Below the pieces are notes generated by a model. It had not been told where the DNA came from, made no database searches, and saw only the letters and a program-made list of their open reading frames with translations. From Thermocatellispora tengchongensis (lineage in GTDB: Bacteria > Actinomycetota > Actinomycetes > Streptosporangiales > Streptosporangiaceae), in contig NZ_JACHGN010000019.1 of the NCBI RefSeq assembly GCF_014202315.1, positions 1 to 64,000 on the forward strand: a DNA stretch of 64,000 nt, given 5' to 3'. Positions 7,899 through 55,477 of this stretch are shown one piece after another (the stretch's first letter is position 1; every line of letters begins with the position of its first letter). The position numbers and the translations under genes are program-made.

Positions 7899-8035
7899 AC
7901 TGACGCCGCTACCCGTGACCCGCGGTCCCATTCACCCGGCCGCGTCTTGTCACCTGGCCGGATCGTCCACGGCGGCGCTCCCCGCGGCACACGCCGGCCG
8001 GGGCACGTCCGCGCCCCGGCCGGTGGCTCCGCCGC

Positions 8036-8467: not shown

Positions 8468-8604
8468 CGTCACATCCCTCCTTGACGCGAACACCTCCAG
8501 TCCACGCCCGCCGCGCGGGCAGGACCAGGGACGAACGTCCCTACTCCCGCTACCCACCTCCCCGTCCGGCAGGCACCCCCTGCCATCGCCGGACTCGCTA
8601 TGCC

Positions 8605-8627
8605 ATGATAACGACAACCGTTTTCAT
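8605..8627 (+). promoter_or_regulatory. Candidate Zur (zinc repressor) operator
   Basis: The palindrome ATGATAACG(N5)CGTTTTCAT has one mismatch between 9-bp arms, and contains the AT-rich TGA..AAC/GTTTTCA elements of actinobacterial Zur boxes. It lies 25 bases before the start of a COG0523 metallochaperone, a classic Zur target. The assignment rests on resemblance and context. Confidence 0.55.
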
Positions 8628-8651
8628 ACTTTCGGACACCGAGGAGGTCCT

Positions 8652-9782: not shown

Positions 9783-9791
9783 GACGGGGCA

Positions 9792-10334: not shown

Positions 10335-10349
10335 AACAGCCCCCCATTA

Positions 10350-10390
10350 GATAGTGGAGCTATCCTAGCATTTGGATAGCGCCACTATCC
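10350..10390 (-). promoter_or_regulatory. Two tandem palindromic operator-like sites upstream of the DoxX gene
   Basis: GATAG-N5-CTATC at 10350-10364 and GGATAG-N5-CTATCC at 10374-10390 are each palindromic, and together they form a 16-bp inverted repeat. The spacing and position, 16 bases before the start codon, suit a TetR-type repressor. No regulator is adjacent. Confidence 0.6.
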
Positions 10391-10513
10391 AGTCGCGAGG
10401 TGCGGCCAGTGGAGGTTCGGGGCCGCGTTGGGGCGCGACGCGCTCCTGGAGGCCCGATCAGTGCAGTCGGTTGCCCGCACCCATCTGCCGGTCATGACCG
10501 GCCCCGGACGGTC

Positions 10514-33904: not shown

Positions 33905-34056
33905 CGGATCCGTGCATCCGTTCATCTAACGACCGTTTGACGAACACGCGCCAGACACACACCCAGGAGGCCCCCGAACCTGGCCCGAACGTTCATTTTG
34001 CCGTTCATTTTCCAGTACGGTTCATCTACCTCATGCAGGACGTTTGATGAACGGAA
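33905..34056. other. Candidate res recombination site
   Basis: Between the cargo operon and tnpR lie three inverted-repeat blocks built on GTTCATC/GTTTGATGAAC: about 33919-33944, 33989-34012 and 34018-34055. Three resolvase subsites immediately upstream of tnpR is the Tn3-family arrangement. The exact crossover site cannot be fixed by eye. Confidence 0.65.
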
Positions 34057-34066
34057 GGCGGTCACC

Positions 34067-34630
34067 ATGGCGCTCATCGGCCTGGTCCGGGTCAGCACCG
34101 ACAAGCAGAAGACCAGGCGGCAACACGACGCCCTCGACCCCATCTGCCTGAAGGTGTTCGAGGAGAAGATCAGCGGCAAGCTCGCCACCGACGACCGGCC
34201 CGCACTGCTGGAGGCGCTGTCCTACATCCGCGACGGGGACATGCTGACCGTCCAAGAGGTCGACCGTCTCGGCCGTAACCTCCTCGAAGGGCTCATCGTC
34301 CTCAACGACCTGTTCCAGCGCGGCATCGCGGTCAAGGTGCTGGAGGGCATCGCGGCCGGCGAGCACACCGAGCGCTCCCTGATTCTCGACCTGGCCCTGG
34401 CCCTGTCAGAGGACCGGCGCCGTGACATCGTCCGCAAGACCAAGGACGGCCTGGAGGCGGCCCGCCGCCGCGGTCGGGTCGGCGGCCGCCGCCCCGTGGT
34501 CGACGACGACAAACGCGCCGCCATCCTCGCCCGCCGCCAGCGCGGCGAATCCATCCGCACCATCGCCGCCGGCGTCAAGGTCTCCATCGGCGTCGTCCAC
34601 AAGACCCTCGCAGACGCCAAGGATTCGTAG
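34067..34630 (+). CDS. tnpR: Serine resolvase of the Tn3-family transposon
   Basis: A 187-residue serine recombinase. The catalytic serine is in IGLVRVSTDKQ (residues 4-14). The conserved arginines are in EVDRLGRNLLEGL and DDRPALLEAL. A C-terminal helix-turn-helix follows (RRQRGESIRTIAAGVKVSIG). ATG 34067 is preferred because it begins MALIGLVRVS. It resolves transposition cointegrates at the adjacent res site. Confidence 0.95.
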   Translation: MALIGLVRVSTDKQKTRRQHDALDPICLKVFEEKISGKLATDDRPALLEALSYIRDGDMLTVQEVDRLGRNLLEGLIVLNDLFQRGIAVKVLEGIAAGEHTERSLILDLALALSEDRRRDIVRKTKDGLEAARRRGRVGGRRPVVDDDKRAAILARRQRGESIRTIAAGVKVSIGVVHKTLADAKDS

Positions 34631-36450: not shown

Positions 36451-37251
36451 TCACGACGTCTCCGGCGGCCGCCAGGACCAGGTCATGTTCCAGGTGGCGC
36501 GATCGACCCGGCCGGTCACGGGCAGGCCGGTGGCGCGCTGGTAGCCCTTGCAAACGGTGCGGGACTGCGGGCCGTACCAGCCGTCGACATCGATGGTCCA
36601 GCCGCGGCGGGCCATTCGTTCCTGCCAGGTCTCGACGTCCTCGCCGTGCATCATCGGGTCGGTGACCTCCAGGACGCGGCCGGGGAACAGGGCCACGTCG
36701 CCATCCCACCTGACCTTCGGCACGGGCTTGGGCGCGGCCGCGCCCGGACGGGGCGCGCCCTCCTGAATCCACTCGTACAGCCGGTCGCCGGGGCATTCGG
36801 TGGCGTACCCGTCGCGGTGGCCGGCGATCTCCCGGCCGGCGCGGCCGTGGGCGCGCAGGTAGGCGATGGCGTCCAGGATGCCGTGCAGCATGCCCGGCGG
36901 CGGGACCACCAAGCCGGAGGTGCCGACCAGGCCGAGTACGGCGTAGTGCCCGGAGTTCAGGCCGGGCCCGTTCGCGGCCGGCAGGTTGTTCGGGCCGCGC
37001 CCGACGAACACACGCCGGTGTGGACAGCAGGCATAGGTGTACCCGATGTCCATCCAGCCGTTACCGTCCTGGTGCTGCTTTTGGATCTGGCGGACCAGCG
37101 CCTCGCACCGGTCGTGATCCTCGACGATCGCGGGGTCGACCCGGCCGCCGGTGTAGTGGATCTTCACCCCGCGCGGGCGCGGCATCCCGTCGTAGCGGCC
37201 GCGCGCAGGTCGCGCGCCCCACTCGCGGCGGGTCACGAGATCGATCGACAT
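36451..37251 (-). CDS. Phage endolysin: N-acetylmuramoyl-L-alanine amidase with peptidoglycan-binding domain
   Basis: A 266-residue enzyme. Residues 5-155 form an Amidase_2/PGRP domain starting VTRREWGARPARG; zinc ligands are in VKIHYTGG (His) and IAGHRDGYATECPGD (His and Cys). A C-terminal peptidoglycan-binding domain at about 200-260 has RMARRGWTIDVDGWYGPQS. No signal peptide, so export relies on a holin. ATG 37251 fits the family start. Confidence 0.93.
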   Translation of the reverse strand: MSIDLVTRREWGARPARGRYDGMPRPRGVKIHYTGGRVDPAIVEDHDRCEALVRQIQKQHQDGNGWMDIGYTYACCPHRRVFVGRGPNNLPAANGPGLNSGHYAVLGLVGTSGLVVPPPGMLHGILDAIAYLRAHGRAGREIAGHRDGYATECPGDRLYEWIQEGAPRPGAAAPKPVPKVRWDGDVALFPGRVLEVTDPMMHGEDVETWQERMARRGWTIDVDGWYGPQSRTVCKGYQRATGLPVTGRVDRATWNMTWSWRPPETS

Positions 37252-38732: not shown

Positions 38733-40424
38733 TCACCATCCCAAGACGTTCTCGTCGAGCCGGCCGAGGCCGAAGTGATCAAGGGTCAGGGCCGCGGTGC
38801 CGGAGAGCGGGGAGGTGTCCAGGGCCATCTCCCAGGTGGAGTCCCCGATGACCTCGGAGATCCCCTCCACCCACAGGTCCAGCAGGTCGCTGGGCGCCTC
38901 GGGGGGCAGGTCGGTCACCTGGACGCGGTCGCCGATCTCCAGGAACAGCAGGTCCAGCCACAGCTCGGGCACCTGGTGCGCGGCGATGGTGATCGGCGCA
39001 GCCCGCGGGCGCGGCTCCTCATACATCCGGAACATCGCCCGGCCGCGGTCGATGATCTGATCGGCGGGCAGCAGGGTGTCCAGGGTGTAGCTGTAGCGGC
39101 CGTACTCGCCGATGCTGGTCGCGCCCAGCGAGCGATGCTCGGTGCCGTCGAACGCGCGCACCGTGATGTCGTTGTAGAGCAGGGCGTCGTCCACCTGGAT
39201 GGTCAGGTCGCTGCCGAGCAGGTGGGCGGGCAGTTCCAGGACCTGATTGGTCACCGCCTGACGGCGGCCGCGGTCGTGGAAGGCGGGCAGCCCGTCGCTG
39301 CGGAAGAAGAACAGCCCCGCCTCGCTCACCTCGCACGCGCGGATCAGCGGCGCGATCTTCTGGCCCTCCTCCTGTCCGGACAGGCGCAACTGCGACAGCC
39401 CGTTGTCGATGTGCTCCAGGTCGGTGATGCCGGCGATCGTGAGCAGGTCCGCGATGCGCTCGCCGGAGAGCTGGAAGTCGGCCAGGGCGTCGTCCAGGCT
39501 GGCCCGGGCGAGGATCTTGGAGCTGTTGGTGCAGGTGATCGCGGCGTACCCGAGCACGCCGTTGTACCAGGCCAACGGCCAGCGATCGACGTAGCCGCGG
39601 TAGCGGATGAACTCCCTGCCCGGGCTCGTCCAGGTGGTCGGCGCCGGTGCCTGCTCGAACTGCAGAGCCGCCACGTAGACATCTATGGATGCGCCGGGGG
39701 TGACGCGGTGCTCGACCACCACGCGCGCCCACTCGGCGCCGGCGGGGGCGGTACCGGTGGCGGTGACCGGCTGCCAGCTCGTGGTCAGCGTGACGTCGGC
39801 GCCGACGCTGTCGCCGAGCTGGTCGCCGGCGACGTCGTACCAGCGGATGAACATCCGCACCATCGAAGGGCCGGTGGCGCCGCGGCGGGCCAGGCACTGC
39901 ACGGCGTAGGGCTGGCCCTCGGTCACCGTGATGGCCTGGTCGGTGGGGGTGCTGACGGTCGAGCCGCCCACGTACAGCAGCTCGCCGTTCCACAGCACGC
40001 CGCTCCACCGGATGCTGCGCATGAACGAGAACCCCGGCGGGATCACCGCCAGATCCACGGCCAGGTCCCCGTCTGAGGCGGCGAACATGCTCGCGTTGGA
40101 GGCGGTGGCCTGGCCGGAGTAGAGCAGGTTGGGCGAGATCGGCCAGCGCGCCCGCACCCTGATCGGCCGGTTGATCTTGACGTTGGGGTAGTACGGGCTG
40201 TCCGGCCGATCGGGGGTGAACCGCCCGTCGCTGTTGAGCAGCTCCAGGGTCATGGTGCCGGGCGAGACCTGGTCGAGCTCGTGACTGCGGCGCCGACTGA
40301 TCTTCACGCCACGGTGCCACTGCACCCACGGGTTGACGTTCACCCACAGCGGGCTGTCGTCCAAGGGGTCTCGGGCGAACGCGATGTCCAGCCAGACCTG
40401 CGGCAGGACCAGTTCCAGGGTCAT
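38733..40424 (-). CDS. Phage minor tail protein (tip/baseplate-type)
   Basis: A 563-residue protein. The start (VWLDIAFARDPLDDSPLWVN) and YVDRWPLAWYNGVLGYAAIT are typical of actinophage minor tail proteins. A carbohydrate-binding-type beta domain sits at about 130-240 (EGQPYAVQCLARRGATGPSM). The C-terminal part has QVPELWLDLLFLEIGDRVQV, resembling a DUF-type tail hub region. Its start overlaps the stop of the tape measure gene by ATGA. It lies between tape measure and appendage genes, as expected. Confidence 0.8.
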   Translation of the reverse strand: MTLELVLPQVWLDIAFARDPLDDSPLWVNVNPWVQWHRGVKISRRRSHELDQVSPGTMTLELLNSDGRFTPDRPDSPYYPNVKINRPIRVRARWPISPNLLYSGQATASNASMFAASDGDLAVDLAVIPPGFSFMRSIRWSGVLWNGELLYVGGSTVSTPTDQAITVTEGQPYAVQCLARRGATGPSMVRMFIRWYDVAGDQLGDSVGADVTLTTSWQPVTATGTAPAGAEWARVVVEHRVTPGASIDVYVAALQFEQAPAPTTWTSPGREFIRYRGYVDRWPLAWYNGVLGYAAITCTNSSKILARASLDDALADFQLSGERIADLLTIAGITDLEHIDNGLSQLRLSGQEEGQKIAPLIRACEVSEAGLFFFRSDGLPAFHDRGRRQAVTNQVLELPAHLLGSDLTIQVDDALLYNDITVRAFDGTEHRSLGATSIGEYGRYSYTLDTLLPADQIIDRGRAMFRMYEEPRPRAAPITIAAHQVPELWLDLLFLEIGDRVQVTDLPPEAPSDLLDLWVEGISEVIGDSTWEMALDTSPLSGTAALTLDHFGLGRLDENVLGW

Positions 40425-43119
40425 ACGGTCACGCTCCCGATCGGGCCGAGCGGGAAGCCTCGCCGCGCCGCCTCGGCCACACCGTCGATCACCAGCCGGG
40501 CGATCTCCTCCCGGGAGACCAGCGGCTGTCCGGAGAAGTGCAGGTGCAGGTGCGTCTGGCCGGCCTCGCGAACCACGGTCACCCCGGCCGCGTAGCCGCT
40601 GCCGGCGGACAGGCTGCCGGCCAGCGAGGCACGCACGCGGCCGAACGCGGCCTGCCGCTCGGCGCCGGCCAGGACGTCCAGCAGCCCGGACTGGCGGGCG
40701 AGCTGCAGCGCCCGGGCCGGGCGGGTCAGCGGCAGCACCACCTCATCGCCAGCCTCGCCCACCAGCGCCAGGGTGGGGCGGCGGATGATCGCGCCCTGGG
40801 CCAGGCGCGGCAGCCGTACAACGGGCAGGCCAGGCACCAGACCGGCGAAGCTGTTCATGGCGCCTTCGACCCAGCCGATGATGTCGTTGATCCATTTGCG
40901 GATCGCGTCGCCGATCCGACTCAGGCCCTGGTTGACCATGTCGGGGCTGCCGATGACCACGCCGATGAAGGTCTGCACGGCGCCGAGCACGAGTTCGAAC
41001 GCGCGTTGCAGGGTCTTCAGGGCGAAGACCCCGTTGTTGGCCAGCATCTTGACCGCAGCCAGGGCCTCGGGGCTCTCCAGCAGCTTGGCGATCAGGGGCG
41101 ACGCTTTGGCGAACAGGTCGGCGAAGATCCGTACCAGGTCGATGAAGGGCGGCAGCAACTTCGGGACCTCGGGGATCAGCGGCTTGACGATCTCCAGCAG
41201 GAGCTGCAGCATCGGCGGGATCAGGGGCGTGGCAGCCTGGAAGATCGCCAGGAGCTGCTCGGCCAGGTCGGCCAGCATCGGGGCGAGCACCGGCGCCTGG
41301 TTGATCAGCTCGACCAGGATCTCGCCTCCGAAGCGGATCAGGTCCGGTAGGAGCTTGACCAGCTCGGCCGCCACGCTGGCGAAGGCGCGCGCCAGGTCGC
41401 CGATGTGGGGGGTGACCTGGGGCAGGACCTGCTGCAGGGCGGCCAGGACCTCCCCGCCGACCTCGCGCAGCGCGTCGGTCACCGGCTGCAGGAAGGACTG
41501 CGTGTCGCGCAGCGCGCTGGCGAGCTGGCCGCCGAGCTGCTCGGCGAAGGGCAGCACAGCCTCGGCCACCTGGCGGAACAGCTCGGCGAGCTGGGGCAGG
41601 ATCGGGGCCAGCACGTCGGCCAGGGCGGAGACCACCGGCTGTAGCAGCGTGGCCAGCAGGGTGAGGTTGGTTCCCAGCCTCTCGACAAGGATTCCGGCGA
41701 GCTCGACCAGCGGCGGGATGAGGGGCGACAGGGCGATCAGCAGATTGCTCAGCCCGGTGCCCAGGGTGAGCAGGCCCTGGGAGACCTGCGGTGAGGCGAA
41801 CGCGCGGGCCAGGGCGTCGGCCACGGACACCAGGCCGGGCCCGAGCGCGGCCACGGCCGGCCCCAGGGCGGAGATCGCGGCCGACAGCGCCGGCCCCAGG
41901 GCGGCGGCCAGGTCACCCACCTGGGGGGCGATGTGGGCGACGGCGCCGGCCAGGGACTCCAGCACGGGCCACAGGGCCCGCCCGATCTGCTCCAGCGCCC
42001 GGAAGACCTCGACCAGGACCGCCTGGCCCTCGGCGCTGTTGACCCAGGCGTTGAACGCGTCGACCAGGTTGCCGACCACGCCGAGCGCGCTGCCGCCGGC
42101 CGCCGACACGGCGCTGAAAACGCCGCGCACGATCCCGCCGACGTCGGCGGCGATCGAGCCCAGGGCCCGGAAGACCTCCAGGGCGGTCTCCATCCAGACC
42201 AGCGCCCGGCCGCTCTCGGCGGCCAGGGTCAGGAACCGGCCGAACTGGGCGGCCGCCTCGCCGATGCCCGGCGCCAGTCCGGTCAGGAACCCCGACCCCA
42301 CCACGCCGATGTCCCGGAACCCCGCCAGCAGCGGGGCCAGGGCCGGGGTGACCTCGGAGATCGAGGTGCGCAGGTCGGCGAACACCCTGCGCACGGCCTC
42401 CAAGGACTCGGCCGAGCGGGCGAACTCCATCAGCCGCACCGCGCCGTTGCCGAACTCGCCGGCGACCAGGACCATGCTCGGCCGCAGCACCTCCAGCAGG
42501 GCCCGGCCGGTCTCCTGGATCTCGGCGACCAGGGGCGCGAAGACGGCGTCCTGCACCGCCCACTTGAGGGTGTCGAAGGTGGGCTTGAGCGCGCGCAGCT
42601 CGTACGCGGCCGCGACCGCCCGTTCGGACAGGCCGTCCAGGGAGAGTCGGCGAAGCCGAGGAAGTCCTCGGTCAGGGCCGCGCTGAACGCTTCCCCGACG
42701 CCGGCGAAGGCGACCTTGAGCGTCGTCATGGCCGCGGCGCCGAGCAGCGCGGCGCCGGGCAGCGCCGCGACGATGCCCACGGCCGGGGCGAGCGCGGCGG
42801 CCAGGCTGGCGGCGCTGGATGCGGCCGAGGCGGCCGCGCCGGCCATGACCGACAGGCGGCCGGCGGTGGCGAACGCGTTCGCCCCGGTGCTGGCCAGGCT
42901 GGTGCCGAGGCTGGCCAGCGTGCCGCCGATGCCGCCCAGGCGGGCGCCCAGCCCGGTGACCGCATCCGACAGACCCGACAGTCCGTCGCGGGCGGAGGAG
43001 CCGGAGCGGCCGAGGGACTCGATCCGCCGGCCGGCGCGGTCGGCCTCATCGCCCACGTTGCGGAAGGTCTTGCTGGCGAAGTCCCTCGCGAAGATGTCGA
43101 AGGACATCGTTGAGGCCAC
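40421..43119 (-). pseudogene. Tape measure protein, split by an apparent frameshift
   Basis: The first frame (43119 to about 42645) has the typical start FDIFARDFASKTFRNVGDEA, then a Gly/Ala-rich region. Near 42640-42650 it changes from EDFLGFADS to unrelated arginine-rich sequence, while the expected continuation (LDGLSERAVAAAYELRALKP) is in the neighbouring frame. That frame runs on as a 711-residue helical and amphipathic repeat protein with an C-terminal domain. Joined, the product is about 900 residues. One base appears to be missing. No slippery heptamer is at the break, so either the prophage is defective or the base call is wrong. Confidence 0.8.
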
Positions 43120-44196: not shown

Positions 44197-45228
44197 CTAC
44201 AGGGTGGTGTCGGCCGAGATGCTCATGATCTGCAGCGGCGCGTTGACGCCGTCGTCATACGCCTCCCAGGACAGGTCCATCATGACCGTGCCCGGGCCCT
44301 CGACCACCGCGGGCGCCTCCTTGATCAGCATCGCCGGCGTGATGAAGCTCAGCGTGTCGACCTCGCCGCTGACGCCGATGGGCTCACCGGTCAGGCCGAA
44401 CTCCATCGCGACCGGATCACCGGACTTGAACAGGTCGTAGACCTCGACCTGGGAGAACTCGGCCTTCATGCTGCCGGTGATCGTGGGGATGTCGTTTTCC
44501 AGCGGCTGCGCCTTCACTCCGCCGTTGCCGATGCCGTAGCGCTCGGTGTCCAGCGGAGTGGTGCCCTTGATCGACAGCTCCCGGATGATGGTCGCCACCG
44601 CCGTGCCGCCGGTGATGGACATCAGCCCGCTGTTGGTGGCGGCGGTGCCGCCGAGCTTGAGCGTGGCCTGGTGGAAGCCGAACAGGTTCGCCGCGGGGAA
44701 GCTGGCGGTGGCCAGCGCGGTGGCGGTGCTCTCGTCCATGCCGTCCAGCGACAGCTTCAGCCGCAGGACGTCGTTGTCGCTGAGGCTGATCTCCCACTCG
44801 GTGATCTTGCATCCGCGGTAGGTGAACGGCCGCACGATGCCGGTGGCCGGCTCCGGCCTGCCCACCTGGACCGTGAGCCCGAGCCCGAGCTTGCCGACCG
44901 GGACGTGCACCTGCCGGTAGGCGGTGGTGGACCCGATCTGCGTCGCCACCGCCGTACTGCCGATCATGTGCTGGAACAGTATGCCCATGCCGCGGCTGCT
45001 GACCGGCAGCTCGATCTCGCCCGAGACGGTGATGCGGCTGCGGGTCACCCGGGATGCCTGCTTGTACTTGCGGCCCGCGCGCAGTGTGGTCGGCTCCAGG
45101 AACCCCGGGGAGTACTTCAGGCTCTCCTTGTCGATCTCGTGGAACCGCGACACCGTGACCGGCGTGCCCACCACGGTCTCGGCGGCCAGGCCGATCTGTG
45201 CATCCAGGCCCGTGCCCGTGGCCATCAC
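44197..45228 (-). CDS. Major tail tube protein
   Basis: A 343-residue protein, beta-rich, starting at GTG/ATG 45228 or 45225. The opening (GLDAQIGLAAETVVGTPVTV) and the YRGCKITEWEISLSDNDVLR segment fit the phage tail tube family (TTP/DUF of actinophages). It is directly upstream of gp10-like, gpG/gpGT and tape measure genes. The start overlaps the upstream gene's stop. Confidence 0.85.
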   Translation of the reverse strand: MMATGTGLDAQIGLAAETVVGTPVTVSRFHEIDKESLKYSPGFLEPTTLRAGRKYKQASRVTRSRITVSGEIELPVSSRGMGILFQHMIGSTAVATQIGSTTAYRQVHVPVGKLGLGLTVQVGRPEPATGIVRPFTYRGCKITEWEISLSDNDVLRLKLSLDGMDESTATALATASFPAANLFGFHQATLKLGGTAATNSGLMSITGGTAVATIIRELSIKGTTPLDTERYGIGNGGVKAQPLENDIPTITGSMKAEFSQVEVYDLFKSGDPVAMEFGLTGEPIGVSGEVDTLSFITPAMLIKEAPAVVEGPGTVMMDLSWEAYDDGVNAPLQIMSISADTTL

Positions 45229-45948: not shown

Positions 45949-46766
45949 GCGATTCCCATCGGGTGATCTCCCAGGAGCTCCAGGGCCCGGCGGGGAATGG
46001 AGTAGCCCCAGCGCGGGTCCCAGACTTCTTCCGAGCCGCCGGCCCGGACGCTGCCCATGCGGCCGCGCTGCGTCTCCCACAGGTGCTGGATGATGATGCG
46101 GGCCGCCTGGGTGATCGTGTCGGGCACCACCGCGCGGCCGGCGGTGTAGTTGACCGTGATCCGGCCGGGCTCCCAACAGCTCTCGTAGTCGCCCACCATG
46201 CGGGTCAGCACCCCGGCCTCGGCGTCCAGCTCGTACCCCGTGGGGTCCAGGACCTGCCCGCCGGGCAGGGTCACGCTGGCCACGGACACGACCGGCCGGT
46301 GGTCCAGCAGCAGGTCCCGCCACCCGCCCCGCAGCCGGGCGGTGACCGGGAGGGGCAGGACGCTGCCGGCGTGCCGCTGGACGATCTCCGTCGTGGCGCG
46401 GATGAACGTGCTGATCTCGTCATCGTTGCTGGTGTCCGCGGGGGAGACCTTGAGCTGCCGCTTGGCCGCGCCGAGGCTCACGATGCCGGCCTCGCCCCAC
46501 ATCGGCGCGACGTCGAACGGCTCCTCATCGACGCCGCTCGGCGCGGTGGTGATCCAGCGGGCGACGTGCCGCCCCGCCTGCACGGTGGCGTAGTCGTACC
46601 GGTAGACGCCCACCCCGCCGGAGATCAGGTCGGCACCGGTGAAGGGGCCGGCGATCGTGCCATCCGGCAGGCGGATCGACAGCGAGACCGTGGCCGGGGT
46701 GACCAGCGCGCCGTCCGCGTACACCTGCGTGGCCAGCCGTACGGCGGTGCCCAGCGCCCAGGTCAT
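45945..46766 (-). CDS. Head-tail connector with N-terminal beta domain
   Basis: A 273-residue protein from ATG 46766. The N-terminal 95 residues are beta-rich (SIRLPDGTIAGPFTGADLIS). The C-terminal part is a phage gp6-like head-tail connector: SLGAAKRQLKVSPADTSNDD, EISTFIRATTEIVQRHAG and YTAGRAVVPDTITQAARII. The first part may derive from a separate connector or decoration protein. Start and stop overlap both neighbours (ATGA). Confidence 0.82.
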   Translation of the reverse strand: MTWALGTAVRLATQVYADGALVTPATVSLSIRLPDGTIAGPFTGADLISGGVGVYRYDYATVQAGRHVARWITTAPSGVDEEPFDVAPMWGEAGIVSLGAAKRQLKVSPADTSNDDEISTFIRATTEIVQRHAGSVLPLPVTARLRGGWRDLLLDHRPVVSVASVTLPGGQVLDPTGYELDAEAGVLTRMVGDYESCWEPGRITVNYTAGRAVVPDTITQAARIIIQHLWETQRGRMGSVRAGGSEEVWDPRWGYSIPRRALELLGDHPMGIA

Positions 46767-49168
46767 GAATCGCTCCCTCTCAGTGTGGCGACCGGTGCCG
46801 CCGAGGACCTCAGCCGGGCGGGCCCGGCCACCGGCGCGCCGGGCGTGCCGCGCGCGGCGAGGATGCCGCCGCCGGCCATGGCGGCCGTCATGGTGAGGCT
46901 GGGACCAGGCGTCGCGGCCGCGGCCGCCAGGGCGCCGCCGGACAGGCGCGCGGTCATGGTCACCGACTTGATGCCGACCGCGCTCATCAGCCCGCCGCCG
47001 TGCAGGGTGGCGGCGGCCGGCGCCGAGCCGAACCCGTACTCGGAGAAGTCGACCGGGACCGGCTTGACCAGGTCGACCTGGCGGGAGGCGTCGGGGCACT
47101 GCACGCCCATGTCGGCCAGCAGGTTCATCACCATCTGCTGGATGTCGGGCTGGGCCGGCCGCACGGTGCGGTCGTGCCAGGCATCCAACCCCCACGCGAG
47201 CTGCACGGTCCCCACGCCCAGGACCACGGCGCCGGAGGGCGCCTGGTAGGCGCCCATGTGGTGCGTGACGGTGCCGCTCCCGCTGTAGTCGTTGCCGTTC
47301 TCGTTGGAGATCAGGTTGGTGACCGTGAACGTGGTCTCGGACAGGCGCACCCATCCCGGCGGCCGTTCCTGCTCGCGGTCCTCATCGGTCTCGAACCCGA
47401 TCAACCCCGGGTAGGAACGGGACTCGCCGGGGCCGAGCTCGGCCACCGTGGTGTCGCGCCAGATCGGGTGTGCGGCGTAGGCGTCGGGCACCGTTAGGGC
47501 GAACTCATGCAGCCCATTGACCCGGAAGAACTGGCCGGTCACCGTCGCCGGCGAGCGGCGCTGCGGGTTGAACGCCCGGGTGTCCTGCCAGGTCCCCGAG
47601 TACAGGCCGGTCGGGTTGAGCTGCCCGTCCATGCTGTCTTTCCAGCAGGCGTACGTGCGGCGGCCGCCGTCCCACCGGATGCGCCAGAACAGCTCATTGC
47701 CCGCGGCGATGATCAGGTGCACGCCGGCGTCGCGCGCGGCCACCAGGTTGTCCCACATGGTCGCCGACCAGTACTCGCTGTGCCCGTGCACGATCACGAT
47801 CTGGCGGCCGGTCAGCAGGCTGGGATCGGCGTCGATGTCGGGGCAGCTCGCGTAGTCGACGTCGTAGCCGTTGCGCTCCAGCCACCTGATCGCGGGGTAC
47901 TCGCTGTTGAACAGCCACGTCTGCGGCAAGTGCTCCCGCGTCACCCACGGCCGGTCATAGCTGACCGCCCGGCAGCGCTGGGAGAGGTTGAACACGAAGC
48001 TTGCCGCGGTGCCGGCGCCGTACAGCGACCGCCCGTTGAACGGGTCGGCCGGGTTCGCCCCCGCGTGGTTGTACGCCTGCCACGTGCTGTCGCTGGTGAC
48101 GACCAGGATCGGCGCCTTGCGGGCGGGGTTGCGCACCACGAAGGGGATGTGGCTCGCGCCCCCACCGCCGAGCACCGGCCGGGCCAGGTAGACACCCGGG
48201 CAGGCGTCGGGGGGAACCGTCCAGCTCGCCGACACCGTCCAGGACGCGCAGCTCGCCATGAGCGTGGTCGGGTCGATCGTGCCCGTGGGCTGCGTCGTTG
48301 GGGTGCCTGTCACGGTATCGATCAGGCGGGCGCCCGCCCCGTTGTAGTAGCCCAACCGGTAGATGGCGACGTCGAACGGCGCGCCGCCGCTGTGGATCTT
48401 CAGATCCAGCGTGCCGCCCTGCTCGACGCTCATCGCGGTGGCGAATCCCTGGATGCCGGGATCGCCGGCGCCGTCGATGTCCCACCCGGCGCTGCCCTGC
48501 TCGCGGTTCTCGGCCTCCACCGGATTCTCCGGCGGCGGCAGGCTCCCCCCGCTGTTGGAGAAGACCGCGATCACGCCCTGCTGGATCGGGCCGCTGGCCA
48601 AAAGCCCGGTCGCGCTGTAGGCGAGGTTGCCGGTCGACGGCGCGGTGCCGCTCGCGGCCGCCAGCCACACGTCCTCATCGCCGGAGACCGCGGCGCCGAG
48701 GATGCGGTCCAGGTGCTCATCCAGCGGCGGCGTCCAGGGGCCCACCGCCTCGCCGGCCAGGCTGATGTGGTGGATCGCGCCGAGCGCGACGAACACGTGG
48801 TCGCCCTCGTTCATGGCCAGCGCGTTGAACGCCCACGACCCGCTCGGCGCTTGGTTGCGGCCCACCGCGGTGATGAAGGCGTCGATGTCATCGCGCTCCA
48901 GCACCACCGCCTGCAACCGCCGCGGCCCGGACAGGTTGACCTGGATCGAGGTCTCGCCGCCGGCCATGTCCATGGAGAAGATCGACACATCGGCGTTGGA
49001 CACGTTCGTGCCGCGCTTGATCGCCCCGGGGATCGTGATCACGGCGGGCGCGGCCGCCAGGATGATCAGCGTGCTGCCGGCGGTGGCCGGCTGGTCGAGC
49101 GGGACCGTATGGGTCGACGCGGCGGCGCCGGGCGGGGCAGCCGGGTAGATGACCTGCTGCAGGAGCAT
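46763..49168 (-). CDS. Large protein with N,N-dimethylformamidase beta-subunit-like domain in the phage structural operon
   Basis: An 801-residue protein. Residues 1-200 are beta-rich and have phage-structural character (LDQPATAGSTLIILAAAPAV). Residues about 225-690 match the DMFase beta-subunit C-terminal family: DVAIYRLGYYNGAGARLI, SDSTWQAYNHAGANPADPFN, EYPAIRWLERNGYDVDYASC, QIVIVHGHSEYWSATMWDNL and AAGNELFWRIRW. The Tyr and Glu in the last two segments could be the iron ligands known in DMFase. The C-terminal 110 residues are Gly/Ala-rich repeats. It is overlapped by the connector gene start. An enzyme of this size here is unexpected; the substrate may be a host envelope amide, but that is inference. 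Confidence 0.8.
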   Translation of the reverse strand: MLLQQVIYPAAPPGAAASTHTVPLDQPATAGSTLIILAAAPAVITIPGAIKRGTNVSNADVSIFSMDMAGGETSIQVNLSGPRRLQAVVLERDDIDAFITAVGRNQAPSGSWAFNALAMNEGDHVFVALGAIHHISLAGEAVGPWTPPLDEHLDRILGAAVSGDEDVWLAAASGTAPSTGNLAYSATGLLASGPIQQGVIAVFSNSGGSLPPPENPVEAENREQGSAGWDIDGAGDPGIQGFATAMSVEQGGTLDLKIHSGGAPFDVAIYRLGYYNGAGARLIDTVTGTPTTQPTGTIDPTTLMASCASWTVSASWTVPPDACPGVYLARPVLGGGGASHIPFVVRNPARKAPILVVTSDSTWQAYNHAGANPADPFNGRSLYGAGTAASFVFNLSQRCRAVSYDRPWVTREHLPQTWLFNSEYPAIRWLERNGYDVDYASCPDIDADPSLLTGRQIVIVHGHSEYWSATMWDNLVAARDAGVHLIIAAGNELFWRIRWDGGRRTYACWKDSMDGQLNPTGLYSGTWQDTRAFNPQRRSPATVTGQFFRVNGLHEFALTVPDAYAAHPIWRDTTVAELGPGESRSYPGLIGFETDEDREQERPPGWVRLSETTFTVTNLISNENGNDYSGSGTVTHHMGAYQAPSGAVVLGVGTVQLAWGLDAWHDRTVRPAQPDIQQMVMNLLADMGVQCPDASRQVDLVKPVPVDFSEYGFGSAPAAATLHGGGLMSAVGIKSVTMTARLSGGALAAAAATPGPSLTMTAAMAGGGILAARGTPGAPVAGPARLRSSAAPVATLRGSDS

Positions 49169-49183
49169 GACCAGGTCCTCGGG

Positions 49184-49804
49184 TCAGACCAGGGTGAGCA
49201 GGTCGCCCACGGTGGGTTCGGCGACGGTCAGCACCCCGGCGCTGGCGAACGTCTCCACCGTGATCGGCATGATGATTCCGGCGCCGTCCCCGGTCAGGTT
49301 GATGGCGGCGCCGCCCTGGCTGGCGGCGAGCTTGAGCGTGGCGCCGGCCACGTCTCGAACGTGGTAGACCGTGCCCGCGGTGAGTCCGGCGGGCAGGCTG
49401 GCCGCGGCGCCGGGGAAGACCACCACGGTGTCGCCGTCGACGAAGGCGTGCCCGGGCGCGGTCAGCACGTCCGTGGCCGCGGCCGCGGTGTACGCCGCCG
49501 GCGGGGCGGTCACATCGGCACCCGTGAGCGGGGTCATCCCGCCGTGGATGCCGCCGCTGGCCTGCGACCACCAGCCCACCCAGCCCACGGTGGAGCCGGC
49601 CGGGACCTGGAACGCCACGGAGGCGGCCAGGGCCTTGCTGCCGCCGGACGCCGCGGCGTAGGTCGGCGCGACCCGCGCGTACCCGCCGCCGGTCAGCTCA
49701 TTGCCGCCGGTGGCGCTGTAGGCGCTGTGCAGCGACAGGTGCGTGCCGCGGCCGGTGACGAACTGGTCGAGCATGTAGTCCCGGCCGGCTACCGCGAACG
49801 GCAT
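49184..49804 (-). CDS. Phage structural protein, beta-rich (decoration-like)
   Basis: A 206-residue protein starting MPFAVAGRDYMLDQFVTGRG. The central region is Gly/Ala-rich and the C-terminal part (DGDTVVVFPGAAASLPAGLT) is a beta domain of the kind found in capsid or tail decoration proteins. No family assigned. It lies between the capsid region and the DMFase-like gene. Confidence 0.65.
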   Translation of the reverse strand: MPFAVAGRDYMLDQFVTGRGTHLSLHSAYSATGGNELTGGGYARVAPTYAAASGGSKALAASVAFQVPAGSTVGWVGWWSQASGGIHGGMTPLTGADVTAPPAAYTAAAATDVLTAPGHAFVDGDTVVVFPGAAASLPAGLTAGTVYHVRDVAGATLKLAASQGGAAINLTGDGAGIIMPITVETFASAGVLTVAEPTVGDLLTLV

Positions 49805-49815
49805 GGGTCCTCCTG

Positions 49816-50190
49816 TCAGGCCGTCTTGGCGGGGCGCTTGGCGGCCGCGCGCTTCGGTACGGCCTGCTCCGGCGGCGCCGGCGTGGCTGCGTCCTCGGTG
49901 CCGGCCGCGTCCGGGTACAGCGGGCGCAGCCGCTCGGGCCGGTGCTCGGGCGGCAGCTCGGCCGCCAACCGCTTGGCCTCCACGCGGGCCTGAGCGGCCA
50001 GGACCTCCTGCCCCTTGCTCTCGTGCTCCTCGGCCTGGTCGAGCAGCTCGCCGATCCGGTCCTGGATCGCGGCGATGACGCGCTCGCCCTCACGGCGAGC
50101 AGCGGCCGCGCGGTCCTCACGGCCGCTCTGCTCGTAGCGCTGGTACTCCGCGGCGTACCCGTGCAGCTCGGCGATCAGGTCATGACTCAT
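49816..50190 (-). CDS. Small helical phage protein near the capsid gene
   Basis: A 124-residue protein from ATG 50190. The central 70 residues are a charged coiled coil (EGERVIAAIQDRIGELLDQA). A Pro/Ala-rich basic tail follows (AVPKRAAAKRPAKTA). Such proteins are common after actinophage capsid genes; function unknown. Confidence 0.7.
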   Translation of the reverse strand: MSHDLIAELHGYAAEYQRYEQSGREDRAAAARREGERVIAAIQDRIGELLDQAEEHESKGQEVLAAQARVEAKRLAAELPPEHRPERLRPLYPDAAGTEDAATPAPPEQAVPKRAAAKRPAKTA

Positions 50191-50272
50191 CGCCTCGTCC
50201 TCTCTTCTCAGGGTCGGGGGTGGTGGCCCCGGGCGGCCGGGCCTCACTCGGCAGCCGGCCGCCCGGGCGCGA

Positions 50273-51802
50273 TCAGAAGCCGGCCTGCGGGATCATCCCG
50301 GTGCCGGAGATGACCGAGATGGACTCGGCGCGGCGGTCGGGCATGAACGCCAGGTAGTTGTAGACCTGGAGCCGGACCTGCAGGGTGCCGGACAGCACCT
50401 CGGACAGGACGCGGCTGCGCATGCCGCCCTCCCACAGGTACTGGTCGGAGGTCCGCAGCGTGATCGTGCGGGTCTCGTTCGTGGCGGCGCCGAGGTTGGT
50501 CGGCATGTTGCCGGCCAGGATCACCGGCGTGCCGACCGTGAGCCGGCCGACCGGACCCTCGGCGGCCTCGCCGGTCTGCAGCGCCAACGCATTGAACGGG
50601 CCATGCTGCTCCGGCAGGATCAGCGGCCGGCTGTTCCCGTCGAGCTGGGAGCAGGCCCAGTACCAGATCGCCGGGTGCACGAATGTCGCGGTCGCCGGCA
50701 TCTTCCGCTTGGTGAAAATCTGGGAGACCGACTGGACCCACGGCACCCACATCTCCGGCAGCGTCGGGTCCGCGTCGGTGTAGGTCACCGCGTTGATGCC
50801 CGCGACCGTGAGCAGACCCTTGAGCTGCGTGCCGGTGCCGGTGCCCGCGATGATCTGCAGCTCCTTGCGCATCGCGTAGTCGGCCAGCAGGTCGGCGAAC
50901 ACGACCTCGTCGAAGGAGATCGGGCTCTGGTCCAGGAGCTGCAGGGCGATGTCCTGCTGACCGGCGAGGGTCTTGACCGGAGCGCTCACGAACGTGTCGG
51001 TCAGGTCCACGCTCGTGACCGCGCCGCCATCGGCCTGCATGCCGGTCTGCGTGCCGGTCGCGACCTTCGGCACGTTGATCGAGTCGGTGCCGGGCGGCAG
51101 AGTCAGGTTCCGCACGCTGTTGGCGATCGGCGAGCCGAAGCGAGCGAAGTCGATGTACTCATCGATCAGCCACAGCGGCGGCACGAAGTACCCGCCCTGG
51201 CCGTCAGTGCGGTTCGGCGCGACCCGCTGCTCGGGGGCGCCGCGCTCGAACAGCGACTCCAGGCCGCGCCGGTGGTGGCCGAGGTCGCGGTCGAGCTGTT
51301 CCAGGTCGCCCCGGGCACGGGCGAGGCGGCGCTGCTCGCGCTTGGGCAGATCCACGTCCAGCTCCTGGGCGTGGCGCTGCAGCCGCTCGCGGGCCGCCTG
51401 CACACCGCCGTCGCCGTCGCCGCGGTTGAGCTCGGTACGCGCGAGGTCGAGCCAGTAGGAGTGCCGGCGGCCGCGGCCGTACTGCGTGGGCTCCGACAGC
51501 ACCTCGACCCGGGGGCGGTGGGGGTCCTCCGGGCCGGTCTGGCCGAGCTTGGCGGCGAGCTGGTCGGCGTTGGCGCGGCGCTGCTGGGCGGCCTCCACCT
51601 CCTCCACGCGGGCGCGGGCCTCGGCGATCTCCGCATCGTGGGCGCGCAGCGCCGCGGCCGCGGCATCGAACGCGCTGCGCTCCTCCTCGGTCAGGTTGCG
51701 GCTCTCGGCCTTCGGCTTCTCCAGGACCGCGGTCAGCTCGCTTTCGAGCGCGGCCCTCTTGGCCAGCAGCTCCTGAAGCTGCTGGCGCAGGAACTCCAGC
51801 AT
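50273..51802 (-). CDS. HK97-family major capsid protein with N-terminal delta/scaffold region
   Basis: A 509-residue protein. Residues 1-170 are a helical delta domain (EFLRQQLQELLAKRAALESE) that is presumably cleaved by the adjacent protease. The capsid domain has the HK97 pattern: GGYFVPPLWLIDEYIDFARF, SINVPKVATGTQTGMQADGG, FADLLADYAMRKELQIIAGT, and a C-terminal VQVYNYLAFMPDRRAES-type strand. Longer than the usual 385-430 because of an extended delta region. Confidence 0.92.
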   Translation of the reverse strand: MLEFLRQQLQELLAKRAALESELTAVLEKPKAESRNLTEEERSAFDAAAAALRAHDAEIAEARARVEEVEAAQQRRANADQLAAKLGQTGPEDPHRPRVEVLSEPTQYGRGRRHSYWLDLARTELNRGDGDGGVQAARERLQRHAQELDVDLPKREQRRLARARGDLEQLDRDLGHHRRGLESLFERGAPEQRVAPNRTDGQGGYFVPPLWLIDEYIDFARFGSPIANSVRNLTLPPGTDSINVPKVATGTQTGMQADGGAVTSVDLTDTFVSAPVKTLAGQQDIALQLLDQSPISFDEVVFADLLADYAMRKELQIIAGTGTGTQLKGLLTVAGINAVTYTDADPTLPEMWVPWVQSVSQIFTKRKMPATATFVHPAIWYWACSQLDGNSRPLILPEQHGPFNALALQTGEAAEGPVGRLTVGTPVILAGNMPTNLGAATNETRTITLRTSDQYLWEGGMRSRVLSEVLSGTLQVRLQVYNYLAFMPDRRAESISVISGTGMIPQAGF

Positions 51803-51929: not shown

Positions 51930-52616
51930 TCAGCGGCCGAGCAGCAGGGCGTGCGCCTCTGCCTCGGCCAGGCCCAACGGGTAGACCCGCCGGGAGTCTG
52001 GGGCGCCGTCCAGGCGGCGCTGCAGGCGGGCGATCAGCGCCCGAGCCTCCTCCTCCGGAAGCTGGTCGAGCTGGGCGGCGCGCACAGCCTCGACCGAGGT
52101 CTCGGGGTTGGCGCCGAAGTTCACCACCGACACGTCGCCGCGGTGCATGTCCACCTCAAGGATGTCCCGCTGGTCGTAGTCCGGGGACCACTGCGACTTC
52201 CCGTAGGGCACGCGGAACGCGAACGACATCTCATCCACGTTGCCGTCCTCGATGGCGATCACCATGTCACGCACGTCCGAGCGGGTCGCGTTGACCTGCG
52301 CGCGCATGTGCAGGCCCTGGGAGTCCTCGGAGAGCTCCAGGGTGCCGGCCTTGGTGTAGGCCATGGACAGGCCCCGATGGTTGAGCAGGAGCTGCACCTG
52401 CGGGTGCTCGGACAGGGTCTTGGCGAACGCGCCCGCCCTGATGACCTCGGTGTAAGGGCCGTACCAGTCGTACATCTCGTACGGCGCCTCCGTCACGGAC
52501 GCGTAGCCCTCCACGATGGTGGGGCCGCCGCCGCCCTGGGCACGCACCTCCAGCCGCACCGGGTAGGCCCGGCGCTCCAGGCCGGAAATCTTCGCGCGGT
52601 CGCTCTTGTCAGGCAC
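51930..52616 (-). CDS. HK97-family prohead protease
   Basis: A 228-residue protein starting at GTG 52616. It shows the herpes-like protease pattern: IVEGYASVTEAPYEMYDWYG, the catalytic-site His in QLLLNHRGLSMAYT, the Ser in EMSFAFRVPYGKSQW and VSVVNFGANPETS. It matures the capsid precursor encoded just downstream. Its start overlaps the end of the portal gene. Confidence 0.93.
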   Translation of the reverse strand: MPDKSDRAKISGLERRAYPVRLEVRAQGGGGPTIVEGYASVTEAPYEMYDWYGPYTEVIRAGAFAKTLSEHPQVQLLLNHRGLSMAYTKAGTLELSEDSQGLHMRAQVNATRSDVRDMVIAIEDGNVDEMSFAFRVPYGKSQWSPDYDQRDILEVDMHRGDVSVVNFGANPETSVEAVRAAQLDQLPEEEARALIARLQRRLDGAPDSRRVYPLGLAEAEAHALLLGR

Positions 52617-53784
52617 GGCTACCTCCCGAGTCGCTGGTGGGTGCAGGGCTGGGCAGGCTGTCGAACTCGGCCTGCTGTTCAGGCGTCAGCGGCGGCAGGT
52701 CCTCCAGCTCGCGCGCCTCGGACGGGGCCTGGATACGGTTGCGGATCGCGAGCTGGTAGGCGCGGTAGCGGGTGAGGATGTCCGTGCGCAGCAGCGCGCC
52801 GCGGTTGATCCGCACGTACTGGCCGCGCGGCAGCATGGCCGACAGCGCTCGCTCCAGCCGGACCAGCCACGGGTCCAGCGCGTAGATCAGGAGCTGGATG
52901 TTGCGCTCCTGGATGTTCTGGTAGGTGAGCGCCCCGCCGGTCTCGTACCCCAACACCTCGGCCAGACCGGGCCCGAAGATGCGGCAGCACTCGATGCTGG
53001 TCAGCTTGTGCGTCTCCAGGAACTGCGACTCCTCAGGCGCGATCTGGATCGCCTGGTACTCCCAGTCGCCGCCGAGCACCACCGGCTCACGACGCCCACT
53101 CACCGCGGCGAGGAATCGGGTCTTGGCCACCCTGGCCGCGGTCTCGTTCAGGCTCGCGGTCGTCTTCAAGATCGCGGTCGGGTGTCCGCCGTCCTCGAAG
53201 AACTGGTTGCCGAACCGCAGCACGTTCAGGCCCAGGCCGATGGTCGCCGCATGGTGTCCGATCGGAGACAGGCCCTGGATGCGGCCCGGCATCGGATAGG
53301 CGCGCTGGTGCCAGATGTCCGAAGTCGGAATCTGGGTGCCGGCCACACGCCACTCGACCTCGCCCGTGGTCGGATCGCGGCGCACGCCGATCTCATCCGG
53401 GTGCTGCATCACGATCTGCGTCGGCAGGCCGCGGGGGCCGCGTGCGGCGATGATGCCCACGGCGTTGCCGCGCAGCATCTCGCTGGCCAGCACCTGATAG
53501 GCCCAATCGCCGTACCCGTAGCCATCGCCGGCCGGGTCCTCCATCCACGTGGGCAGATCGATCTGCCGCGTGCTGGTGCCCGTTCCATCGAACGCGTCCA
53601 GGGGCAGCATGCCCGCGGTGCCGGCGATCAGCGACACCGACGCCCACACCGCGATCTTCTGCAGCGAGACCTCGGTGGCGCGTAGATCCACCCCAGCGCC
53701 GGCCGCGCCGGCCTGGCTGGGCGGGGGGATCACCCACCGGCTGGGGTGAAAGATCCGCTGCTCGCTGCCGAAGAACAGGCTCAT
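52609..53784 (-). CDS. Phage portal protein (HK97/SPP1-like)
   Basis: A 391-residue protein from ATG 53784. Motifs include MQHPDEIGVRRDPTTGEVEW, SDIWHQRAYPMPGRIQGLSP and RFGNQFFEDGGHPTAILKT, then AEVLGYETGGALTYQNIQER, all characteristic of HK97-like portals. It forms the dodecameric DNA gate. Longer frame upstream to 54015 is not part of the family. Downstream of terminase, upstream of protease, as usual. Confidence 0.93.
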   Translation of the reverse strand: MSLFFGSEQRIFHPSRWVIPPPSQAGAAGAGVDLRATEVSLQKIAVWASVSLIAGTAGMLPLDAFDGTGTSTRQIDLPTWMEDPAGDGYGYGDWAYQVLASEMLRGNAVGIIAARGPRGLPTQIVMQHPDEIGVRRDPTTGEVEWRVAGTQIPTSDIWHQRAYPMPGRIQGLSPIGHHAATIGLGLNVLRFGNQFFEDGGHPTAILKTTASLNETAARVAKTRFLAAVSGRREPVVLGGDWEYQAIQIAPEESQFLETHKLTSIECCRIFGPGLAEVLGYETGGALTYQNIQERNIQLLIYALDPWLVRLERALSAMLPRGQYVRINRGALLRTDILTRYRAYQLAIRNRIQAPSEARELEDLPPLTPEQQAEFDSLPSPAPTSDSGGSRA

Positions 53785-54008
53785 ATCGACACCTCGCGGC
53801 GCTGACTCAGGCGCGCGTATGCGCGGTCGACCAGAATCAGCGCCCCCAGGGTCATCCACCCGGCCGGCGGCCAGGCCAGCCACGCTCCGTAGGAGACCGA
53901 GGCCAGACCCACCAGGCCCGGCCCGGCCTGGCGCAGGACCCTCACCACCGTCCCGGCCGGGCCCGCGGTGGCCACCATCACGGCCCCCAGGCGCGCGCGT
54001 ACGCTCAT
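53781..54008 (-). CDS. Small phage membrane protein
   Basis: A 75-residue protein from ATG 54008 with one or two hydrophobic helices (GLVGLASVSYGAWLAWPPAG, WMTLGALILVDRAYA). Its stop overlaps the portal start as ATGA. It lies in the gap between terminase and portal; function unknown. Confidence 0.65.
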   Translation of the reverse strand: MSVRARLGAVMVATAGPAGTVVRVLRQAGPGLVGLASVSYGAWLAWPPAGWMTLGALILVDRAYARLSQRREVSI

Positions 54009-54019
54009 CGCCCACCCCC

Positions 54020-55477
54020 TCACCAGATGTTGTTCAGCGGGTCGACCTCGGCCGGCGCGGTCGCCAGGCCCCACGCGGCACCGGTGACCGCGACGATGGG
54101 GGAGATGTCCACGCTGGCGTGACGCCGGGCCCACCCCCAGCCGCCGTCCCCGATGACTCGCTTGACGGCGCCCGCCACCGCGGTGGTCAGCGGCGCCTGT
54201 CCGATCGTGCGGAACTGGCCCTGCTCGATCAGGTCGTACAGGCCACCGCACGCCTGGGCCATGTCCCGGGCGCCCATCACGGTGACCTCCAGGCCCGCCT
54301 GCTGCAGCGGCGCGATCAGGCTCCCGGCCGGGCCGGCACCGTCCACGACGATCGCCAGCGGCCGGTGGTCGGCGGCGAGCTGGGCGGCGCGCTCGACCAT
54401 CCACCCGGTGCCGCGCTCGTAGGCGATCAGCTCGCCGTGCACGCGCCCGTCCGCGCGGCGGCCGGCCACCGCGATGACGCCCATGCTGCGGTCGGGCGGG
54501 ACGTCCAGGCACAGCGCGATCGCACCCGAGCGGCGCGAGCCAGGGTCGATGCAGGAGGTCCACAGCTCCTCGCCGATGACCTGCCAGCCGCCCTCCTCCA
54601 TCGGGTAGGTGCCGATCCCGAGCCGCTCGCGGGCGAAGGATTCGGGGTCCATCGCCCGCAGCTCCTTGGCGATGTAGTCCTCGGAGATCCGGATGCCGAG
54701 CGCAGGGTTGGCCATGGCCCACAGCCCGCGGTCGGCCAGCGCCGTCTTGACGTCGGCCAGGGGCCGGCCCTGCAGACGCGACAGGGTGTCGTCCGGGGCG
54801 CTGTACTCGTGGAAGCACAGCGACGGGTCATCGCCGGCGAGGCCCCGCTGGCGTACGGCGCCGAGCTGATAGGAGTCCTCGAACCCGGCCGAAGACCCGT
54901 AGAACAACTGCGGGTTGCGGCGGGCGGACATCGTGGGGAGAAGCGCGGCCATCTCGGCCGGGCCGAGCCGGAACGCCTCGTCCATGATGTTGCAGTCACC
55001 GGAGAAGCCACGGCCGGAGGAACGCGAGCGGGCGATGATCCGCAGTCGCTGCCCCGACAGCAGCTCGATGCCCTCCTCACCGTGGCTGGTGATGACGCGG
55101 CGCACGCGCCGGCGATAGGCGTCCTTGCCGTCGATCAGGTCCTTGATCCGCAGGAACATCTCGCTAGCCGTCTTGAACTCGTGGGCGCTGTAGAGGATCA
55201 GCCGCTCATCGAACAGGAACAGCCCAGCGAGCACGCGCGCCTCGAAGATCCCGCCCTTGCCGTTCTGGCGGCTGACGATGATGCCGCACTCGAAGCACAC
55301 CCACATACCGCGCTCGTCCTCGGCCTGGGCGTCGTTGAGGAACAACTGCTGCCAGGGGTCCAGGACCAGACCGACGTCCGCGGCGAGCTCGGCCACCTCG
55401 GGCCCGCTGGTGTGGGTGTAGGGCGGGACCGAGCGGATGCGCGGGACCTGGCAGCCCAGGGCCAGAGCGGCGGTCAC
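54020..55477 (-). CDS. Terminase large subunit
   Basis: A 485-residue packaging motor. The ATPase domain has an atypical Walker A (SRQNGKG, about residue 70) and a Walker B-like DCNIMDEAFRLGP. The nuclease domain has ALCLDVPPDRSMGVIAVAGR and AIVVDGAGPAGSLIAPLQQA with metal-binding Asp residues. Its start is overlapped by the small subunit's stop (ATGA), consistent with translational coupling. Confidence 0.94.
   Translation of the reverse strand: MTAALALGCQVPRIRSVPPYTHTSGPEVAELAADVGLVLDPWQQLFLNDAQAEDERGMWVCFECGIIVSRQNGKGGIFEARVLAGLFLFDERLILYSAHEFKTASEMFLRIKDLIDGKDAYRRRVRRVITSHGEEGIELLSGQRLRIIARSRSSGRGFSGDCNIMDEAFRLGPAEMAALLPTMSARRNPQLFYGSSAGFEDSYQLGAVRQRGLAGDDPSLCFHEYSAPDDTLSRLQGRPLADVKTALADRGLWAMANPALGIRISEDYIAKELRAMDPESFARERLGIGTYPMEEGGWQVIGEELWTSCIDPGSRRSGAIALCLDVPPDRSMGVIAVAGRRADGRVHGELIAYERGTGWMVERAAQLAADHRPLAIVVDGAGPAGSLIAPLQQAGLEVTVMGARDMAQACGGLYDLIEQGQFRTIGQAPLTTAVAGAVKRVIGDGGWGWARRHASVDISPIVAVTGAAWGLATAPAEVDPLNNIW

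Follow-up and report, generated by a model that had tools for sequence, protein, structure and literature searches.

What is an enzyme domain of the dimethylformamidase type doing among the structural genes of a prophage? The question is raised by a 64,000-nucleotide stretch of contig NZ_JACHGN010000019.1 (assembly GCF_014202315.1) of Thermocatellispora tengchongensis, called the window throughout, in which an initial annotation had placed such a domain in an 801-residue gene at 46763-49168. An open reading frame (ORF) encoding 801 residues was found there on the minus strand with an ATG start, and its product is referred to as the window protein. From the findings presented below, the chance appears slightly better than even that it is a neck protein of the virion, probably an iron-dependent amidohydrolase, which would be displayed at the head-tail joint and would N-deacylate the host surface polysaccharide. 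The virion location is suggested by the gene architecture, the activity on the particle by the conserved residues, and the substrate, polysaccharide N-acyl groups, by the context of the cellular relatives.

The DMFA2_C domain and its active site

The sole Pfam family found in the window protein was PF20254 (DMFA2_C), which scored 284.7 bits compared to a cut-off of 27 (E 1.8e-84) over model positions 2-369 of 374. The two motifs quoted in the initial annotation, HGHSEYW and GNELFWRIRW, start at residues 461 and 490, respectively. When the protein was modelled with AlphaFold2 from 39 aligned sequences, residues 210-710 were mostly above 90 in predicted local distance difference test (pLDDT), and the catalytic part, of GATase1-like fold, was located by Pfam and model at approximately residues 351-712. 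In the same run, confidence was low for the initial 200 and the final 80 residues, including the expected C-terminal Gly/Ala repeat, which is present at residues 735-785. The closest solved structure to the model was N-acetyl-(R)-beta-phenylalanine acylase 8huy (Z 32.9, root-mean-square deviation 2.6 over 408 residues, 23% identity). Dimethylformamidase was a near-tied second (6lve, Z 32.1; 6lvb, Z 31.8, root-mean-square deviation 2.8 over 419 residues), and the next structural family dropped to Z 15.7. The acylase was also the best match in a PDB profile search (E 1.3e-18). Dimethylformamidase was found by profile searches but not by a single-sequence PDB search with the window protein.

According to the available part of PMC7686228, Fe3+ is bound in dimethylformamidase by Y399, Y440 and E521 with H519 close by, and the Y440A, E521A, N547A and E657A variants are inactive. 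In the profile alignment, Y399, Y440, E521, H519, N547 and E657 corresponded to Y366, Y383, E465, H463, N491 and E593 of the window protein, respectively. These six positions were identical in all 39 aligned rows and fall among only 24 invariant columns. The rows, chosen and labelled by the analyst, comprised 16 labelled phage rows, in each of which the metal-site residues are kept, 22 cellular rows (21 of the 45 cellular loci and the host's own copy) and the viral contig L075. The enzyme domain looks intact, and judging by these residues one Fe3+ is probably held by two tyrosines and a glutamate, with a histidine, an asparagine and a further glutamate completing the active site.

The literal name dimethylformamidase is best avoided. 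The large subunit of the Paracoccus enzyme (6lvb) has, like the window protein, an Ig-like and a GATase1-like fold and the six iron and catalytic residues. In contrast, identity is approximately 20%, and the Paracoccus subunit lacks both the extra N-terminal phage domain and the adjacency or fusion to virion genes. The Ig-like domain of the window protein matches dimethylformamidase domain I but lacks the lectin-like domain II (residues 74-337) that is inserted there: in the profile alignment, whose first piece is weak, 45 positions (59-104) span 307 residues (31-338) of 6lvb, and 419 of the 762 dimethylformamidase residues align in structure with the model. Since the lectin-like insertion is absent, the window protein is assigned to the DMFA2_C family without being called a dimethylformamidase. 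The N-acyl acylase (8huy, 8i5a) is at least as close, being the best profile match and, by a small margin, the best structural match. It is an N-deacylase by name, though the name points to a small-molecule substrate; the open-access literature searched yielded no paper on this enzyme.

Coupling to virion genes and recurrence in other phages

By PHROGs, the surrounding operon was of the siphovirus head/tail type with structural genes on both sides, as the initial annotation had it. It is read right to left on the minus strand in the order terminase, portal, protease, capsid, 143-aa gene, head protein, DMFA2_C gene, adaptor, tail protein and tape measure. The gene had been described as lying between capsid and head-tail connector genes and overlapping the latter. 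The adaptor gene does adjoin it, through an ATGA stop/start overlap, but two genes (the 143-aa gene and the phrog_240 head protein gene) separate it from the capsid gene. A programmed frameshift between the DMFA2_C and adaptor genes was weighed as well. Upstream, the adaptor frame is open, but the junction is more simply accounted for by the ATGA overlap. No match to the window protein itself was found in PHROGs or NCBIfam at E 1.

The same design was found in other phages. Loci used for comparison carry L-numbers. L005 and L006 came from a scan of viral contigs queried with the window protein, and L007, obtained in a genome scan, is a prophage of Actinoplanes siamensis. In each of the three, a single protein (954, 1007 and 951 residues, respectively) contains the N-terminal domain, DMFA2_C, Fn3 and a C-terminal part. 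The C-terminal part matched a head-tail adaptor in every case: phrog_541 in L005 (E 1.5e-15, behind a 1e-33 match to phrog_33358, of unknown function), phrog_442 in L006 (8e-24) and phrog_137 in L007 (4.5e-10). The position after the capsid gene was the same in all four phages. Their best terminase families differed (phrog_9 in the window, phrog_2 in L005, phrog_19179 in L007), as did their best major head protein families (phrog_2263, phrog_212, phrog_10 and phrog_29 in the window, L005, L006 and L007, respectively). A tblastn comparison of 22 window proteins at E 1e-3 gave matches, beyond the DMFA2_C protein, for the adaptor and the tape measure only, both in L006; the fetched stretches of L005 and L007 gave no match beyond the DMFA2_C protein.

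Relatives of the L005 adaptor were found in two named phages. The isolated Streptomyces phage Ididsumtinwong has it as a free-standing protein of 132 residues (E 9e-8), encoded downstream of the capsid gene with one small gene in between, and in Micromonospora phage pMLP1 it is an ORF of approximately 229 residues with 46.5% identity. The same search of phage records gave no relatives of the window and L007 adaptors. By eye, the pMLP1 ORF (L108 3710-4399) has an N-terminal extension of approximately 100 residues resembling the start of the window adaptor.

In a scan with a broader profile, 33 pattern matches led to at least 16 viral contigs with DMFA2_C, one of them the window's own. In L079 (3766-10599), a 2277-residue ORF joins a tail tube (Phage_tube_2, phrog_290) to DMFA2_C, four DUF4082 and four BACON domains. 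In L082 and L083 the DMFA2_C gene is preceded by an ORF with a weak match to tail protein phrog_8763 (E 6e-6 and 3e-6, respectively) and followed by a very large ORF that is tape-measure-like by eye, and in L076 a tail-fibre gene lies upstream with other genes in between. A PHROG scan of the DMFA2_C ORFs of L074 and L078 was without match, and these two, like the other remaining contigs, are less firmly placed. The tail-PHROG matches of L073, L080, L082 and L083 were not accepted as virion fusions, as they were probably driven by Fn3 or Ig-like domains, and L075 was not kept as a phage copy; its start looks like that of a secreted cellular protein, and it was labelled cellular in the tree. Going by the encoded polypeptides, the firm virion fusions are L005, L006, L007 and L079. 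A stray cellular gene in the prophage was rejected on account of these fusions to adaptors and tail tube.

In the tree, 14 of the 16 phage rows and L075 formed one group (support 97/93) apart from the 22 cellular rows (98/81), and the four adaptor-linked copies formed a clade at 100/99. The remaining phage rows, L054 and L085, were long branches of unsure position. The root is a midpoint only, and as the cellular rows were found by window-protein query, further types of cellular protein may have escaped the tree. On the viral contig L054 (82.9 kb), the DMFA2_C ORF (7944-11504) stands alone and is followed by an ORF that is beta-helix-like by eye. No relative of the window protein, L054 or a cellular copy was found at E 0.01 in the 50,697 phage records of INPHARED, nor was there a match among the BFVD predicted viral structures at E 0.001; because both searches were empty, no cultured-phage example could be used.

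Cellular relatives and the proposed role at the neck

Cellular DMFA2_C proteins of Actinomycetota and Rhizobium were 35-45% identical to the window protein over the Ig-like and catalytic domains and had the same six residues in the aligned rows. They differ in a leader-like start (by eye), in a Big_7/Big_5/DUF4082 tail (scanned for L014 only) and in having no phage N-terminal domain. Five core amino-sugar/polysaccharide genes were counted around them: a Gfo/Idh/MocA oxidoreductase, an epimerase, a DegT aminotransferase, a PglD/NeuD-like acetyltransferase and a hexapeptide-repeat acyltransferase. At least three of the five were held in the fetched stretch by 27 of the 45 cellular loci (L008-L052), and 11 of the 13 loci with no core gene had some other query gene (flippase, chain-length, glycosyltransferase-region, transporter or unnamed). 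These counts include the loci from which queries were taken (L014, counted in the 27, and L008 and L020, counted in the 11) and some near-copies, such as L014, L024 and L049. The host's own cellular-type copy, on contig C34, lies in a cluster with flippase-like, glycosyltransferase-like and two aminotransferase-like genes, in which a NeuD-type acetyltransferase was above the curated cut-off and the other gene names were below it. A. siamensis also carries a cellular-type copy, judged by match range, so both lysogen genomes searched do. Among 200 genomes drawn from the order, 49 (host included) had a DMFA2_C match at E 1e-60. Read by eye, 19 of the loci located in these genomes have leader-like or basic stretches ahead of the domain, and Big_7/DUF4082-like sequence follows it. 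In L066 (12403-16791) and L067, as in 27 of the 45 loci L008-L052, cellular DMFA2_C proteins were seen beside an amino-sugar surface-polysaccharide cassette. No study on the function of the cellular DMFA2_C-DUF4082 proteins was found in the open-access literature searched; a secretome paper mentions DUF4082 once (PMC4257694).

Because the DMFA2_C protein is coded with the adaptor, through the overlap in the window and as one polypeptide in three phages, copies of the enzyme would be arrayed around the head-tail joint. When the particle meets a cell, they would hydrolyse amide bonds in the host surface polysaccharide. The N-acyl groups of amino sugars are the most likely target, since an N-acyl acylase is among the closest structures and amino-sugar clusters surround the cellular relatives. 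The coat would be loosened or altered, and the tail could then reach its receptor. The initial annotation had suggested cutting of envelope amides or modification of a surface; this is partly supported, stays the best mechanism and is sharpened by the polysaccharide-cluster context. It may also be, although we would stop short of calling it probable, that a tyrosinate-iron N-deacylase of host polysaccharide forms a mobile phage module plugged into outward-facing particle proteins, namely three adaptor families, the tail tube and fibre-region proteins. If true, such a module would be a virion enzyme whose chemistry and place at the neck are undescribed for phages in the literature searched. No description of a virion domain of this kind was found in the open-access literature searched for dimethylformamidase and DUF4082.

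Known phage systems resemble the proposed one in part. In the available part of PMC6669499, modules are also found on the neck and the major tail protein of 936 lactococcal phages, but they are reported as carbohydrate-binding, whereas the window module has the full set of catalytic residues. The tailspike deacetylase of Acinetobacter phage Aristophanes is likewise a structural protein acting on capsule acyl groups; in contrast, it is a tailspike and acts on an O-acetyl group of a K26 sugar (PMC8471582, available part).

The lactococcal example bears on a different explanation, in which the fold is kept and the domain is an adhesin, that is, a sugar-binding or spacer module like those on the neck and tail protein of 936 phages. 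Such a role would suit the Fn3, BACON and DUF4082 neighbours seen in L079 and other loci, none of which is a known enzyme. However, a binding module needs none of the six metal and catalytic positions, and these were identical in 16 of 16 phage rows among the 24 invariant columns, which makes an adhesin unlikely. An amidohydrolase on the virion could instead act on peptide or protein amides, for example of the cell wall, and not on polysaccharide N-acyl groups. The solved relatives have small amides as substrates (dimethylformamide in one case and, going by its name, an N-acetyl amino acid in the other), and the cassette link of the cellular copies is indirect. Cellular relatives are nevertheless often beside amino-sugar polysaccharide genes, and the phage copy L079 retains DUF4082 domains of the cellular type; we regard this other target as likewise unlikely. 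That the head-operon position is incidental, and that the protein is an intracellular or lysogenic-conversion enzyme altering the lysogen surface (superinfection exclusion) or a cytoplasmic amide, appears highly improbable. Alteration of the host polymer is plausible given that the host relative lies in a polysaccharide cluster. By eye, however, the window protein is without the leader-like start of the cellular copies, and the ATGA overlap with the adaptor gene, the direct fusions to adaptors and tail tube in other phages and the constant place after the capsid gene in four phages all point to the particle.

Several points weigh against a polysaccharide N-deacylase at the neck. Capsule-opening enzymes are more often at the tail tip than at the neck. 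The design is rare, in that among 60 places in 200 genomes (five candidates per genome scored) only the window's reaches the N-terminal domain. The phages are partly related: the capsids of the window and L006 both match phrog_10 (window 5e-20), and the terminases of the window and L007 both match phrog_9 (L007 1e-30). Fewer than three core genes were held by 18 of the 45 cellular loci (one gene in 5, none in 13), and the count of 27 of 45 stands without a random-locus control and includes loci that are close relatives of each other; as a partial control, five relatives of the aminotransferase occur at E 1e-30 in the host genome of 11.6 Mb, and the C34 cluster contains two of the five. The cassette link belongs to cellular relatives that are 35-45% identical, and the substrate may have changed. 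Phage coat-opening enzymes are known mostly as tail-tip lyases, glycosidases and esterases, and a neck amidohydrolase module with an intact active site would add both a chemistry and a place to them. The phage module also gives a lead on the cellular DMFA2_C-DUF4082 proteins. A further point against the reading is that the large subunit of dimethylformamidase is inactive without the small subunit (PMC7686228, available part).

The N-terminal domain and other features of the window

The N-terminal domain, poorly modelled in the window protein, was predicted as all-beta in L007 with a mean pLDDT of 84. No known fold stood out for the L007 domain (best Foldseek E 0.028, best Z 7.0, within background). 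Matches to the domain were found in 10 of 341 genomes of the family, host included, the best outside the window having E 2e-9. In 9 of 10 other places it stood in ORFs that by eye run on into Fn3-like repeats, with tape-measure-like sequence upstream, also by eye, in several of the nine; three Fn3 domains were confirmed by Pfam in L056. A GGETSVTV...ERDD pattern was common to the N-terminal domain and the tail-region proteins in a 13-row alignment, from which L063 was left out because the frame read there did not resemble the domain. Because of this shared pattern, the domain is interpreted as belonging to the virion surface. The nine places (L056-L062, L064, L065) are tail-region proteins of other Micromonosporaceae prophages, in which the window's N-terminal domain recurs weakly, followed by Fn3 repeats.

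Table 1. Positions in the window of the DMFA2_C gene, its parts and the neighbouring structural genes
Feature	Position	Strand	Remarks
801-aa protein gene	46763..49168	-	N-terminal beta domain, Ig-like domain, DMFA2_C amidohydrolase domain, Gly/Ala repeat tail
N-terminal all-beta domain, about residues 1-208	48545..49168	-	27-31% identity to the domain of L005, L006, L007
Ig-like domain, about residues 213-350	48119..48532	-	Boundaries inferred from model
PF20254 DMFA2_C match, residues 267-662	47183..48370	-	Pfam
Y366	48071..48073	-	Aligns with iron ligand Y399 of dimethylformamidase
Y383	48020..48022	-	Aligns with iron ligand Y440 of dimethylformamidase
H463 and E465, in HGHSEYW	47774..47782	-	Align with H519 and iron ligand E521 of dimethylformamidase
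N491	47696..47698	-	Aligns with catalytic N547 of dimethylformamidase
E593	47390..47392	-	Aligns with catalytic E657 of dimethylformamidase
Gly/Ala-rich repeat, residues 735-785	46814..46966	-	Occupies Fn3 position of L005, L006, L007 proteins
ATGA stop/start overlap of DMFA2_C and adaptor genes	46763..46766	-	
Head-tail adaptor, 273 aa	45945..46766	-	phrog_442; same PHROG fused to DMFA2_C protein in L006
Head protein, directly upstream of DMFA2_C gene	49184..49804	-	phrog_240
143-aa gene without PHROG match	49816..50247	-	PHROGs
Major head protein	50273..51802	-	Best phrog_2263; also phrog_10 (5e-20)
Head maturation protease	51930..52616	-	Best phrog_80
Portal protein	52609..54015	-	Best phrog_12; ORF extent given
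Terminase large subunit	54020..55477	-	Best phrog_9
Tail protein	44197..45228	-	phrog_290, family of the tail-tube part fused to DMFA2_C in L079
Tape measure protein	40421..42556	-	ORF extent given

At the left end of the prophage, a resolvase-like recombinase (33998-34630, plus strand) and an amidase-type endolysin (36451-37251, minus strand) were recognized by eye. A viral contig of 33,991 bases in IMG/VR is apparently the same prophage, with 100% identity over the window protein and every structural protein matched.

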